From: an uncultured Thermoproteales archaeon
GTDB lineage: Archaea > Thermoproteota > Thermoprotei > Thermoproteales > Thermoproteaceae
Assembly (NCBI GenBank): GCA_938027595.1
Contig: CALJAK010000002.1
Location: forward strand, 1 to 64,000
Length of the DNA: 64,000 nt
Direction: 5' to 3'
Below the pieces are notes generated by a model that worked only from the letters and a program-made list of their open reading frames with translations, made no database searches and had not been told where the DNA came from. The translations under genes and the position numbers were made by a program. This document shows, piece after piece, positions 10,716-55,504 of the stretch (its first letter is position 1; each line of letters opens with the position of its first letter).

Positions 10716-11258
10716 ATGTCAATATTCGACGAGTTTGGGTTCATGAAGAGGTGGCAGAAATTTTTCGAGGAGATCGAGAGACATTTCGAGGAGATTGAGA
10801 AACAGATTGAGGAAGATTTGCGTATGTTTCACAAACCTCAGCGGATTGGGGGAAAGCCACGTTATTACTACTACGGCTTCGAAATCACAATGGGGCCGGA
10901 CGGTAAGCCAGTGGTTAGGGAGTTCGGAAACGTAAAGAGAAGGCCAGATGTGGAAAGAATTGAGTTTGTCGATGAGGTTGAGCCATTGACAGACGTGATT
11001 GAGGAGGATGACAAGATAAAAGTAGTAGTTGAAATACCCGGCGTTGAGAAAGACGACATAAAAATCCACATAAACGAAGACGGACATCTTTTGACAATAG
11101 ACGCCAAAGGCAAAGATAGAAAGTATCGCAAAGAGATTAAACTGCCCGCAGCCGTGGACCCGGCGAAGGCTAAAGCGAGCTATAAAAACGGCGTTTTGTA
11201 TATAGAGATGGAAAAGAGAGAAAAGAAAAAAAGGGGGTTTGAAGTCAAGATTGACTAA
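10716..11258 (+). CDS. Small heat shock protein, Hsp20 family
   Basis: This ATP-independent holdase has an N-terminal amphipathic helix (FEEIERHFEEIEKQIEED), an alpha-crystallin domain at about 88-175 with the typical VVVEIPGVEKDDIKIH, and the GVLYIEMEK strand near the end. The IXI motif is not clear in the basic tail (KREKKKRGFEVKID). It has its own promoter (TATA 'aaatatttataca' just before). The gene ends 14 bases inside the convergent ThermoDBP-like gene. Confidence 0.93.
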   Translation: MSIFDEFGFMKRWQKFFEEIERHFEEIEKQIEEDLRMFHKPQRIGGKPRYYYYGFEITMGPDGKPVVREFGNVKRRPDVERIEFVDEVEPLTDVIEEDDKIKVVVEIPGVEKDDIKIHINEDGHLLTIDAKGKDRKYRKEIKLPAAVDPAKAKASYKNGVLYIEMEKREKKKRGFEVKID

Positions 11259-28837: not shown

Positions 28838-29732
28838 AATCTTCTCGCTTAGCCACATTTCTGGGTTGTCCGCCGAGTGCCCACGTCATTACGTTTTCCG
28901 CGGCTTGACGCATCATTTTATGCCAGACTTCCACACTGCCGTAGCCGCCGGCCACCCAGGGGGTCGCCACCACGTTGGGCATGGAGTAAAACTCGGAGTC
29001 TTTCGAGAAATCTCCCCGACTCCACCAAACGTCGCTGACGTACATAAAAGACGGGCGTTCTCTCAGAATTTTCAACAAGCCGCTGCGGTCTATCACTTCG
29101 GCTCTACCCACGTTTACAAACACCGCTTCTTCTCTCATTAGAGCCAAGTGGTCGTACTTCACTAGGTTTGCAGTGGTTTTGTTAAGTGGCAATGCACATA
29201 CGGCGGCTGAAGCCCTCCTAAGCGCATCTTCTAAACTATTGGTAAAACGCCAGGGTCCCTCTCTGGGGCTCCGAGCAAACGCCCACACCTCGGCGCCGAG
29301 TAGAGACAAGACTCTGGCTACTCTACTACCTATCTCCCCAACTCCCAACACGGCGATTTTGCTGCCGGCCACTTGCGGTATGGCGATGTCCCGGTTGTAA
29401 TCACCACGGCGCATTTTTTCAGCGTATTTCAATACTTTCTTATAGGCAGCCAGCAGTAGAGCTATGGCGAATTCTGTGACTGCATCTGCATTAGAGCCGG
29501 CGTTGCCAGCCACCGTGACGTGAGGCGGTATGTGACTCCACGGCAAGTGGTCGAGACCAGCCGTAGCCACTTGTATGAACCTAAGTCTAGGCATCTTCTC
29601 TAACTCCTCTGGAGAGATGTTTACCACTAACGCTGCGTCTACGTCGGGAGCGGCGTCGCGAGTTACCGCAAACACCTTCTCCAAAGCCTCCTCTACGTCT
29701 TTGGGAATTTGGAAATTCACGTAAAGCTTCAT
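28827..29732 (-). CDS. D-2-hydroxyacid dehydrogenase family protein
   Basis: The 301-residue NAD(P)-dependent dehydrogenase belongs to the 2-hydroxyacid family. The Rossmann motif GVGEIGSRVARV lies near 128-140, VNVGRAEVID with the catalytic Arg near 207, and TPWVAGGYGS near 262. The usual catalytic His region is replaced by this TPWVAGG, so substrate and activity are uncertain. The ATG has a TATA-like 'ggtaattaaaaact' upstream. Confidence 0.85.
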   Translation of the reverse strand: MKLYVNFQIPKDVEEALEKVFAVTRDAAPDVDAALVVNISPEELEKMPRLRFIQVATAGLDHLPWSHIPPHVTVAGNAGSNADAVTEFAIALLLAAYKKVLKYAEKMRRGDYNRDIAIPQVAGSKIAVLGVGEIGSRVARVLSLLGAEVWAFARSPREGPWRFTNSLEDALRRASAAVCALPLNKTTANLVKYDHLALMREEAVFVNVGRAEVIDRSGLLKILRERPSFMYVSDVWWSRGDFSKDSEFYSMPNVVATPWVAGGYGSVEVWHKMMRQAAENVMTWALGGQPRNVAKREDYES

Positions 29733-41682: not shown

Positions 41683-42021
41683 ATGAATCTCTCGGAGCTT
41701 ATGAAGATGCAGATGGATTTCTCGAGAGAGAAATTTCCCCAATTTTGGAAAATTGAAGATGAGAAAGACTTGGCATTGAGATTAGAGTATCTAACGAATG
41801 CTCTAGCTGGAGAAGTAGGCGAAGCGGCAAACATAGTAAAGAAAGTAGTTAGGAGCGTTGTGTACAACCGCGGAGATTTGAGACTTAGAGATGTGAGAGA
41901 AGAGTTGGAGGAGGAGTTGACTGACGTCTTTATCTACACGTTGACAATCGCTGGACTCTTAGGTTTAGACTTGGAGAAGGCATTCTACAGAAAACTAGAG
42001 GTCAACAAGAAGAGATTCTAA
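41683..42021 (+). CDS. MazG-like nucleotide pyrophosphohydrolase
   Basis: The 112-residue protein has the MazG metal motif GEVGEAANIVKK near 43-54 and EELEEELTDVFIYTL near 75-90 (ExxE plus ExxD). It hydrolyses NTPs to NMP and PPi, probably removing aberrant nucleotides. It follows mqnA by two bases and is in its operon. Confidence 0.85.
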   Translation: MNLSELMKMQMDFSREKFPQFWKIEDEKDLALRLEYLTNALAGEVGEAANIVKKVVRSVVYNRGDLRLRDVREELEEELTDVFIYTLTIAGLLGLDLEKAFYRKLEVNKKRF

Positions 42022-42035
42022 CCGGAGCCTCTCCC

Positions 42036-42069
42036 ATCGGCGGCCGTGCGGCCCTCTAGAGAGGCCGAT
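42036..42069. terminator. Hairpin between convergent genes
   Basis: ATCGGC (42036-42041) pairs with GCCGAT (42064-42069). Inside are two smaller hairpins, GGCCG/CGGCC and CTCTAGAG. The stem lies between the MazG stop and the opposite gene's stop. It may terminate transcription from either side or act as an RNA stability element. Confidence 0.4.
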
Positions 42070-42086
42070 CCTAGAGAGATAGATTT

Positions 42087-52622: not shown

Positions 52623-53942
52623 GTGTTTAGGATACGCATTAGAGGCATTTACGCCACTGCCTTGACGAAATTCGCAATAGACTGGGGCTACAGAGTTGTG
52701 CAGCCAACTGAAAAAATTAGGGGGAGGTTCAATCTACCGGGGGATTTCTCTCCCCCCGACGTGACTGTGAGAGACCACATTTCTAAAACTGGCGTAGTCG
52801 CCGTGGGGAAATGCGAAGCAGTAGATGACTTCATAGAAAAACTTCGGAGAGAAGTTGACTCTTTTGTGTCTATCGCCAGCGGTCTCCACGAGGTTTTCAC
52901 TGGGGTGGTTCTAGAAAAGGGACTCGTAGAGGGACCCCACGGCGTGTATAGAATTCCCCCTCCCTACGTCCCCACCCCGGGCTCTACGCAGATTTTCACA
53001 GTAGTGAAGCCCACTACCGTTTCGGAAATTGGAGTGGCAATACCCGAAATCATAGTTGAGGGCGACTACTTGGAGTTAGACACAATAGGCGGCGTGAAGT
53101 TCAGTAAACATATTCCGCATAGAGATAGAGTTAGGCTAAGGATTTTTGGAGAGAAGATCGGCCTCGGCGTTAAGTTCAAGTCTTCTGCTAGATACGCCAC
53201 GGAAGACGTCCTCTTGCGGGAAGTTGAACAACTACGGCGCGAGTTGTTGGAAATCTCCAAAAGCGGGCCCCCCAAAACGTTGTTAAAGAAAGGCCGTTGC
53301 GTGGCGATAATTCTATTCGATAAGATAGCCAAAGAGAGACTTGACGAGGTTAGATCTACAGTGGTGCCAACTATTAGAGGTCACCACGCCTTGAGAAGCC
53401 AGGGGTTGGGCAAATGTCTCGACTTGCTTGATTATCTTGGGTTAGATTTGTATGAAAATGTGACTTCCTTCCTAGCGCGGGAATTCGTGGAATTGCTACA
53501 CGTCAAACCGTGGGGAGATGTGGTGTCGATGAGAGGAGAGCCCGTGGGTTTTAGAAACGGCACGTTTGTAATAAAGCGGTTGTTGAAACCAGGCGGAATT
53601 CTCGACGGAATCGGCGTGAGAATTGAGAGGGGGTTCTACGCTTTGACGTGTGTAACGCGAGATCGCGAAGTAGTACATACTTACTACACTCCACGCGGCG
53701 AGGTCGTGGGGACTTATATAAATATAAACACAGAACCAGAAATTGGGAGGAAGATAATCTATATAGATTTATTAATAGACGTCGTATACAAAGATGGGGT
53801 GGTAAAAATTCTCGATGTAGAAGAACATGAGAAATACAAACATATGTACCCCCAGAGATATAGAAATATAGAAATTCCCCAAAAGGTGTTGTTATGTACA
53901 GAAAGTGGGCTTAAAGCTCTCTCTCAGTCTGACGCCGTTTAA
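52623..53942 (+). CDS. FAU-1-type RNA-binding protein/ribonuclease
   Basis: The 439-residue protein begins with FRIRIRGIYATALTKFAID, the FAU-1 (archaeal RNase E/G-related, DUF402-containing) hallmark. A DUF402-like C-terminal half follows (RIERGFYALTCVTRDREVVHTYYTPRGEVVGTYININTEPE in outline). FAU-1 binds AU-rich RNA and processes 5S rRNA in Pyrococcus. GTG start, TATA region 'tatatatttaag' upstream. The end overlaps the ATP-cone remnant. Confidence 0.85.
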   Translation: MFRIRIRGIYATALTKFAIDWGYRVVQPTEKIRGRFNLPGDFSPPDVTVRDHISKTGVVAVGKCEAVDDFIEKLRREVDSFVSIASGLHEVFTGVVLEKGLVEGPHGVYRIPPPYVPTPGSTQIFTVVKPTTVSEIGVAIPEIIVEGDYLELDTIGGVKFSKHIPHRDRVRLRIFGEKIGLGVKFKSSARYATEDVLLREVEQLRRELLEISKSGPPKTLLKKGRCVAIILFDKIAKERLDEVRSTVVPTIRGHHALRSQGLGKCLDLLDYLGLDLYENVTSFLAREFVELLHVKPWGDVVSMRGEPVGFRNGTFVIKRLLKPGGILDGIGVRIERGFYALTCVTRDREVVHTYYTPRGEVVGTYININTEPEIGRKIIYIDLLIDVVYKDGVVKILDVEEHEKYKHMYPQRYRNIEIPQKVLLCTESGLKALSQSDAV

Positions 53943-54188: not shown

Positions 54189-55079
54189 CTATAAAAACAA
54201 TGCGCCTTCTGTCACTTGTGCAATTTTCACTTCTGCTTTGATACCTTCCTCTATGTAAGCCCGCGAAACGGCTGCCCTAACGCCATCGCTGTGTTTCTCA
54301 TCTACCAAAGCAATTATAGAGGGACCAGCCCCAGAGATAGCCACGCCAAGTGCCCCCGCCTCTCTTGCGTATTTCTTCACCCGCATGTATCCAGGCACGT
54401 GGGGTGCCCGCGCCGGCTCCACCACGTCGTCATCCATACCCAACGCGGTGATGGCGGGATTTGACAACGCGAAGCCGGATACCAAAGCCGCTACTTTCGC
54501 CAATTGGTTTACGTATTTCCCAAATTTCACCACCTCCGGCAAGACGCTCCTCATGATTTTTGTCTTTTCCGGCATGGGGGGCACGTCCGGCACCCCGATC
54601 ACAAAGAGAAGTCGTGGAGTGAACTTCACTACCTCCAGCGGAGATGTGGATACTAACACCACAGCGCCGCCCATCGCCGCCCCAGCCACGTTGTCAAAAT
54701 GTGGCGAGCCAGCGGCCGCCACCTCTCCAAAGCCAGCGGCCTCTATCACTATTTTATAGTCTATGGAGATGTTTGCCTCACGTAAAAACGCCGTAATTGC
54801 AGCCACGGCAGCAGCGCCGCTGCTCCCAAGTCCCCTAGCGATGGGGATGTCGTTGTCTATCTCCACTTCTACATGTTTACAGAGGTCCAGCCGGTGGAAT
54901 AAATGGCTTAAAGCCGCCGCTACTGTGTTCCTCGGTCCCGGGTCGAATTTTTTAAACTTAACCACGACGCCACATCCACTCTCTACTTTTACAGACGCAT
55001 TTGCAAAATATGCGTCGTGTGCCACTGCTACGATGTCGAACCCCGCGCCTAAATTTGCACTGGTAGAAGGCGCCTTCAT
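54189..55079 (-). CDS. thrB: Homoserine kinase
   Basis: This GHMP kinase makes O-phosphohomoserine for threonine synthesis. [12 protein letters not shown] starts the protein; the ATP loop is [16 protein letters not shown] near 84-99; [13 protein letters not shown] is near 260. The start at ATG 55079 (296 residues) is about 23 bases after the TATA box CCTTAAAAATAA. The longer frame adds 35 unlikely residues that overlap the RNA candidate. Confidence 0.93.
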
Positions 55080-55115
55080 GAAAGTCTGTATGTAGTTATT
55101 TTTAAGGCTAGAAGA

Positions 55116-55251
55116 CCCACAGCCCCCAACTGTCGGCGCCGATTTAGCTAATAACGCCAGACGGAGACACCCGCCCGGCGCCATTAGTTATCCCCCACCA
55201 CATGTGGTGGACCCACATGCGGCCGGCTCGGGGGCAGTTGAGAGCTGTGGG
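55116..55251 (-). ncRNA. Structured RNA candidate, about 136 nt, unknown class
   Basis: Ends pair over eight bases (CCCACAGC with GCTGTGGG). Inside, CAACTG pairs with CAGTTG. A first arm is closed by CCCCC/GGGGG with a CATGTGG/CCACATG hairpin. A second arm has about 13 of 14 pairs (TAACTAATGGCGCC with GGCGTTATTAGCTA), and a TCGGCGCCGA palindrome ends the core. A TATA-like box (ATATTTATAA, 55270-55279) stands about 24 bases before the minus-strand 5' end; TCTTCT follows the 3' end. It has no 5S, SRP, RNase P or C/D signature that I recognise. Confidence 0.55.
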
Positions 55252-55395
55252 TATATCTATGTTTGTGTATATTTATAACAGTATCATTGTATCACATGAG
55301 ATATATTAGAAATTAAAATGTTGATATAAAAATTCAAATGTTTGTATACGACTCTACTAAACAAGCTTTATATAGCTACGTTTACAGTTGTCATA
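55252..55395. promoter_or_regulatory. AT-rich promoter region of the RNA candidate and tRNA-His
   Basis: No open frame is seen. The left end holds the TATA-like box of the minus-strand RNA; the right end 'aagctttatatag' is about 25 bases before tRNA-His on the plus strand. The middle is plain AT-rich sequence. Confidence 0.45.
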
Positions 55396-55504
55396 GCCGC
55401 CGTAGTCTAGCGGTTAGGATGGCGGGTTGTGGACCGCCTGGACAAAATCCCGTTGACCCGGGCGGGCTTGAACCCCGGGAGTTCAAATCCCGGCGGCGGC
55501 CCCA
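55396..55504 (+). tRNA. tRNA-His(GTG) with two introns
   Basis: GCCGCCG (55396-55402) pairs with CGGCGGC (55494-55500). C73 and an encoded CCA follow, as usual for tRNA-His. The anticodon loop TTGTGG carries GTG (55429-55431); a 15-nt intron sits at 37/38 (about 55433-55447), after which CCCGT pairs with GCGGG. A 19-nt intron at 53/54 (55463-55481) restores the T arm. The G at -1 is not encoded and must be added. Confidence 0.9.

Follow-up and report, generated by a model that had tools for sequence, protein, structure and literature searches.

A candidate RNA family with a four-way junction and a conserved palindromic arm in Pyrobaculum and Thermoproteus

The minus strand of the window (the whole 64,000-nucleotide stretch of DNA analysed here, from an uncultured Thermoproteales archaeon) carries at 55116-55251 what is almost certainly a real RNA gene, whose product is predicted to fold into a four-way junction closed by a long helix and bearing a short GC-rich palindrome. 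Because the genes next to it, and its orientation relative to them, differ from locus to locus, we consider it very probable that the RNA acts in trans.

Fold, relatives and covariation

The original prediction had placed a multi-branch fold on the minus strand at 55116-55251, and the computed energies bear it out. The minus strand folds at -89.3 kcal/mol against a mean of -56.3 (sd 4.5) for dinucleotide-shuffled sequences, which corresponds to a z of -7.3 and is reached by none of 200 shuffles, while the plus strand attains just -64.1 kcal/mol. The same bias runs through the family: z of the RNA strand lies between -4.3 and -9.0 across all 20 copies and is more negative than that of the complement in every copy except the one from G010, and an alifold consensus of 17 copies gives -66.8 for the RNA strand versus -52.6 for its complement. 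The four-way junction of P1, P2/P3, P4 and P5 is common to all copies, and the length of the RNA varies from about 127 to 173 nt over the family. Two details of the predicted architecture had to be redrawn. The closing helix is present but comprises 17 bp where eight bases had been proposed, and the element read as a palindromic tail makes up the junction's fourth arm, immediately preceding the 3' strand of P1. In the window, the parts are as follows.

55116..55251, minus strand: probable non-coding RNA gene, 136 nt, four-way junction (fold z -7.3, 20 homologous copies, covariation)
55235..55251, minus strand: 5' strand of P1, 17 bp with 55116-55132 (fold and covariation)
55192..55234, minus strand: P2/P3 arm (fold and alignment; double-sided changes in 3 pairs of P3)
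55230-55234 with 55192-55196, minus strand: P2, CCCCC/GGGGG
55213-55223 with 55197-55207, minus strand: P3 hairpin, past an internal loop from P2
55188..55191, minus strand: junction AUAA from P2 to P4, GAUAA in most copies (alignment)
55148..55187, minus strand: P4 arm, 18 bp with a 4-nt loop (fold and covariation)
55143..55147, minus strand: junction CUAAA from P4 to P5, NAAA in most copies (alignment)
55133..55142, minus strand: P5, the palindrome UCGGCGCCGA, with a three-pair stem (19 of 20 copies; CCGGCGCCGG in G015b)
55116..55132, minus strand: 3' strand of P1 (fold and covariation)

Sixty relatives searched at the DNA level yielded homologs in Pyrobaculum and in a sister genus, and a covariance model built from 17 copies and run on 81 genomes of the class brought the total to 20 copies in 15 genomes, the carriers being 10 of the 11 Pyrobaculum and five of the six Thermoproteus genomes searched. 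The same 20 copies were returned by a second model that includes P3, applied with lax filters to 40 genomes. The Thermoproteus genome G016 has its copy at C1:50497-50634 (plus strand). Five genomes (G002, G004, G008, G015 and G017) hold two copies each, and never were more than two found; a quick tree of the copies contains several poorly supported nodes and serves only to recognize obvious sister pairs. Matches of a sequence-pattern scan include P. oguniense TE7, Pyrobaculum sp. WP30 and Thermoproteus sp. CP80, and further ones scattered in unrelated bacteria (Nocardia and others) were judged to be due to chance. With the covariance models, no convincing copy was found in Pyrobaculum G005 (93% complete), Thermoproteus G014 (99% complete) or either g2 genome, which suggests that the RNA is dispensable, missed or too diverged in some genomes, nor was one found in family f2 and the more distant genomes of the class. 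The G005 match, at an E value of 0.23, was set aside as chance, with two similar GC-rich stretches lacking a promoter. A weak second-model match in G014 (C139:10884-10966, E 0.01) may represent a diverged copy; the stretch 10750-11100 of the same contig holds an upstream TATA-like box and a P4-like hairpin, and the palindrome is absent from it.

The original prediction had proposed compensatory changes in the helices of relatives as a check, and these proved abundant. Among the first 17 copies, 98.8% of the cells are standard pairs, and double-sided changes occur in 15 of 39 pairs and in 40 cells, compared with shuffled means of 7.7 and 11.7, respectively; not one of 500 shuffles reached 15 pairs or 40 cells. 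When the partner was slid by one to three columns, pairing fell to 37-57%, with at most 6 pairs and 14 cells showing double-sided changes. P1 contributes strongly, both sides having changed in nine of its 16 counted pairs in the 17-copy alignment. In the nine copies for which P3 could be aligned, 16 of 50 pairs are double-changed (seven in P1, three in P3, five in P4 and one in P5), and P2 varies on one side only. Alignment A3, with six reverse-strand matches among its rows, was left out of these pair counts. Comparison of the copies thus backs the predicted helices P1, P3, P4 and P5 by covariation and P2 by conservation.

Outside this shared frame the copies differ in several places. P3 is the variable arm and is far longer in the copies of G002 and G004, and the internal loop between P2 and P3 reads GGCCUAA in many copies other than that of the window. 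The window's P4 contains CUAAU/AUUAG in place of the CCGGC/GCCGG of other copies, and a conserved A.C mismatch in the same arm (columns 117/131 of alignment A1) becomes G.U, an isosteric exchange, in the window and in the four copies of G002 and G004. Both A-rich junction motifs, GAUAA and NAAA, are conserved in most copies and are altered together in G009 and G017b; since G009 has no other copy, the motifs are not a strict requirement.

Promoter, 3' end and neighbouring genes

The original prediction also described a TATA-like box at the correct distance and a T-rich run past the 3' end. Both were recovered, as listed here with two further upstream elements.

55271..55278, minus strand: TATA-like box TTATAAAT, beginning 27 nt upstream of base 55251 (box spacing in all copies)
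55279-55282, minus strand: ACTG directly before the TATA-like box
55289..55295, minus strand: upstream element GTGATAC, GTAWTAY in many other copies
55110..55115, minus strand: pyrimidine tract TCTTCT past the 3' end of the RNA, putative terminator

In each of the 20 copies, which lie at different loci, the start of a TATA-like box precedes P1 by 27-30 nt; for G003, G006, G008b and G010, where the scan chose a farther AT-rich stretch, the box was read by eye (ACTGTTAAATTT, ACTGTTATAAAA, ACTGTTAATAAC and ACTGTTATAACT). ACTGTT opens the box in most copies, and GTAWTAY begins 13 nt before ACTGTT in many. Exact matches to the combined element GTAWTAY-N6-ACTGTTWWAA number five across 19 genomes of the family, and each of them precedes a copy of this RNA. 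A similar element, GTAWTAC-N6-ACTTTTTWAA, was also seen 5' of other genes (L125, L126 and L129; L123 and L114; around position 1500), which we take to encode the MCM helicase in three genomes and an AMMECR1-like protein in two. Past P1, every copy has 10-14 pyrimidines within 16 bases, and this tract, together with the spacing of the box, supports transcript ends near the ends of P1. The RNA therefore has what a stand-alone archaeal RNA gene should have, a TATA promoter of its own at a fixed distance, from which it is probably transcribed. The proposal of an RNA gene with its own promoter and terminator is supported, as homologs share the structure, the box spacing and the pyrimidine tract.

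On the 3' side of the RNA lies thrB, whose longest open reading frame starts within the RNA, at 55184 (minus strand). The methionine at 55079 (minus strand), 37 nt past the RNA, is its likely start, and a Pfam GHMP kinase match covers 54189-55079, so that automatic annotation may mask the RNA gene. Between the RNA and thrB, a TTAAAAATAA box precedes the ATG by 26 nt, as would suit a leaderless gene. The spacer from thrB to tRNA-His measures 316 bases (55079 to 55396), and the RNA, once thought to fill almost all of it, takes up 136 of these (43%), most of the rest being the AT-rich promoter side of the RNA. The tRNA itself (55396-55501, plus strand) has an Rfam match of 34.6 bits and none in ARAGORN; two long insertions in it look like introns.

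With thrB next on the same strand and its likely start so close, the window copy could be taken for a thrB 5' leader or a riboswitch-like cis-regulatory element. We give this reading almost no credence. Seven further Pyrobaculum loci have thrB close to the RNA and encoded on the opposite strand, and at four of these a presumably cyclase-like gene intervenes; this refutes a general thrB-leader function. The Thermoproteus copies have neighbours that differ from those in Pyrobaculum, and in the window the TTAAAAATAA box lies between the RNA and thrB. The upstream and co-oriented placement that a leader or riboswitch should keep in relatives was thus not found, and the RNA is independent of thrB, given the opposite strand in seven loci and the other neighbours in Thermoproteus.

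Another recurrent neighbour is a DUF402 gene (52623-53942, plus strand, in the window), which we presume to encode a protein of the FAU-1 type and which is found near the RNA in nine Pyrobaculum loci including the window, mostly together with thrB. This shared neighbourhood bears on whether the RNA might be a selfish or mobile palindromic element of the MITE kind, kept by spreading alone. The sequence is near-palindromic overall, P1 could serve as a terminal inverted repeat, and five genomes have two copies at different loci; we nevertheless regard such an origin as very improbable, considering that at most two copies were found per genome, the DUF402 neighbourhood common to nine loci, a promoter kept outside the repeat with constant spacing, and the better folding of the RNA strand in the consensus. 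In searches for a mobile or viral origin, neither phage records nor viral contigs contained a match, and plasmids gave two weak ones at an E value of 0.4.

Comparison with known RNA classes

We then turned to the identity of the RNA. The original prediction knew of no class that would fit, and the searches agree: against the 4227 families of Rfam 15, the window copy shows nothing but the tRNA at E values up to 5, and 16 homolog-containing loci yielded just two chance-level matches (E 1.5 and 4.2).

The comparison with type T RNase P RNA, which the original prediction had recommended, likewise gave no match at 55116-55251 (RF02357, E up to 5). That RNA is similarly compact and occurs in the same archaea, but its distribution is wider: it was detected in 39 of 41 genomes, more than 20 of which lack the RNA described here, and it is encoded elsewhere in every genome that has this RNA. 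In the window genome, it lies on another contig (G000:C6:30302-30509, 182 bits). In G004, a second, diverged type T RNase P RNA was observed at C1:567368-567547 (plus strand; 84.8 bits, above the cut-off), the main copy being at 1981486. Archaeal SRP RNA (RF01857) has no match at 55116-55251 either. It resembles the present RNA in being structured, driven by a TATA promoter and found in the same lineage, but it is about 300 nt long and possesses an S domain. The sole candidate in the window genome, at G000:C7:248951-249265, scores 82.6 bits, under the cut-off of 96.5; in Thermoproteus, SRP RNA is circularly permuted (PMC4731332).

Could the RNA nonetheless be a part or partner of one of these known molecules? 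It might stand in for the specificity (S) domain that is missing from type T RNase P RNA; it might also belong to SRP RNA or mimic domain II of 23S rRNA, and in several genomes the second model does weakly match 23S rRNA, at per-genome E values of 0.01-0.2. We rate the chances of any such relationship as slim. RNase P RNA and SRP RNA are encoded elsewhere, and the many genomes with type T RNase P RNA and without this RNA show distributions different enough that the RNA is not its general partner; the same mismatch led us to reject a trans-acting S-domain substitute. As for 23S rRNA, Smith-Waterman scores against the whole 23S rRNA region stay within those of shuffles, and among three copies outside the training set of the second model, two have no match beyond shuffles to the rRNA segment picked out by that model and one has a weak match equalled by 8 of 200 shuffles. 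After this comparison, mimicry was rejected as an effect of GC-rich structure. The segment, a single spot in domain II that the second model hit repeatedly (L141 and L142) with the same order of arms, was judged to be chance after shuffling.

Among RNAs confined to this lineage, Pyrobac-1 is a structured RNA candidate restricted to Pyrobaculum and tabulated as not cis-regulatory (Weinberg et al. 2010, PMC2864571). Its model (RF01722), of 60 positions, has no match at the window RNA or its homologs; it matches other places in the same genomes and stays below the cut-off in that of the window. RNase P RNA, SRP RNA and Pyrobac-1 were all discarded as identities for the RNA, being separate genes at other places. 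The H/ACA-like PyrR guides (e.g. RF02803 and RF02807) are likewise small, structured and from the same genus, but this RNA is twice as long and has a four-way junction; neither the window RNA nor any homolog exceeds the cut-off of a PyrR family, the one antisense match among the homolog loci scoring 22.5 bits (E 1.5) where the cut-off is 35.6. Elsewhere in the window, at 42010-42075 (minus strand), Rfam recognizes PyrR209, an H/ACA-like Pyrobaculum sRNA, at 46.8 bits versus a cut-off of 42. Direct reading of 55116-55251 revealed neither C (RUGAUGA) nor D (CUGA) boxes of a C/D box sRNA, with no UGAUGA or CUGA present. Taken together, these comparisons suggest that the RNA belongs to a new family outside Rfam 15 and all tested classes, which may have been sighted earlier in Pyrobaculum RNA-seq.

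The P5 palindrome and a possible mechanism

The most conserved part of the RNA is P5, which reads UCGGCGCCGA in 19 of the 20 copies. The remaining one, G015b, has CCGGCGCCGG, in which a U-A pair has become C-G through changes on both sides and the palindrome is preserved. The GCGC of P5 is constant, whereas the loops of P3 and P4 vary. As a lone hairpin, P5 is computed at -0.8 kcal/mol at 37 °C and as unfolded at 75 °C and above, a calculation that omits coaxial stacking on P1, which could stabilize the hairpin. A duplex of two P5 palindromes is computed at -20.3 kcal/mol at 37 °C and -5.75 kcal/mol at 95 °C, an argument valid for any GC-rich 10-nt palindrome. The palindrome occurs twice more in the window, at 29290 and 61635.

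As the lone hairpin is barely stable, the duplex stable and the motif invariant, it is tempting to speculate that two RNA molecules pair through P5, a suggestion that we make tentatively and think less likely true than false. Some RNAs dimerize via palindromic loops, retroviral dimer initiation sites being an example; these likewise expose a self-complementary GC-rich loop, a likeness of mechanism that implies no family relation. Alternatively, the invariant motif could equally be the target site of a protein or of another RNA.

The mechanism that we propose starts from a minus-strand gene whose transcript would begin at its own TATA promoter, end at the pyrimidine-rich tract and fold into the four-way junction. 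UCGGCGCCGA would then act as the dimerization site, either by a kissing interaction of GCGC loops or by a 10-bp duplex between two molecules. Whether paired or single, the RNA would scaffold a ribonucleoprotein assembled around GAUAA and AAA of the junction. The GAUAA and NAAA junctions, both A-rich, may touch one another or bind a protein. Our confidence is evenly balanced on this explanation as a whole, that is, a stand-alone trans-acting RNA gene with a dimerizing palindrome and a scaffolding role in a ribonucleoprotein. Its furthest extension, a stable and probably abundant class of RNA that dimerizes via the palindrome and forms the core of a ribonucleoprotein at 75-100 °C, we hold to be rather doubtful.

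Within the same trans-acting frame, the RNA could instead be a regulatory sRNA whose palindrome or junction strands pair with mRNAs or another RNA, with no dimer scaffold involved. An invariant GCGC loop and single-stranded A-rich junctions inside a rigid frame would suit this role, as would paralogous copies in five genomes, but the RNA is mostly helix and offers few single-stranded bases for pairing; we see it as the less probable account, though one to be taken seriously.

To our knowledge, few structured RNA families are specific to hyperthermophilic archaea, and nearly all stable RNAs that we know of in Pyrobaculum fall into a handful of universal or guide classes. The novelty claimed here applies to the RNA family itself, outside Rfam and the tested classes, and does not extend to the mechanism. 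A public small-RNA dataset from T. tenax (GSE72127, PMC4731332) makes the transcription of the RNA directly testable. A family that is backed by covariation, equipped with a promoter at a fixed position, kept in nearly all of two genera and duplicated in several genomes points to an RNA function that has so far gone undescribed.
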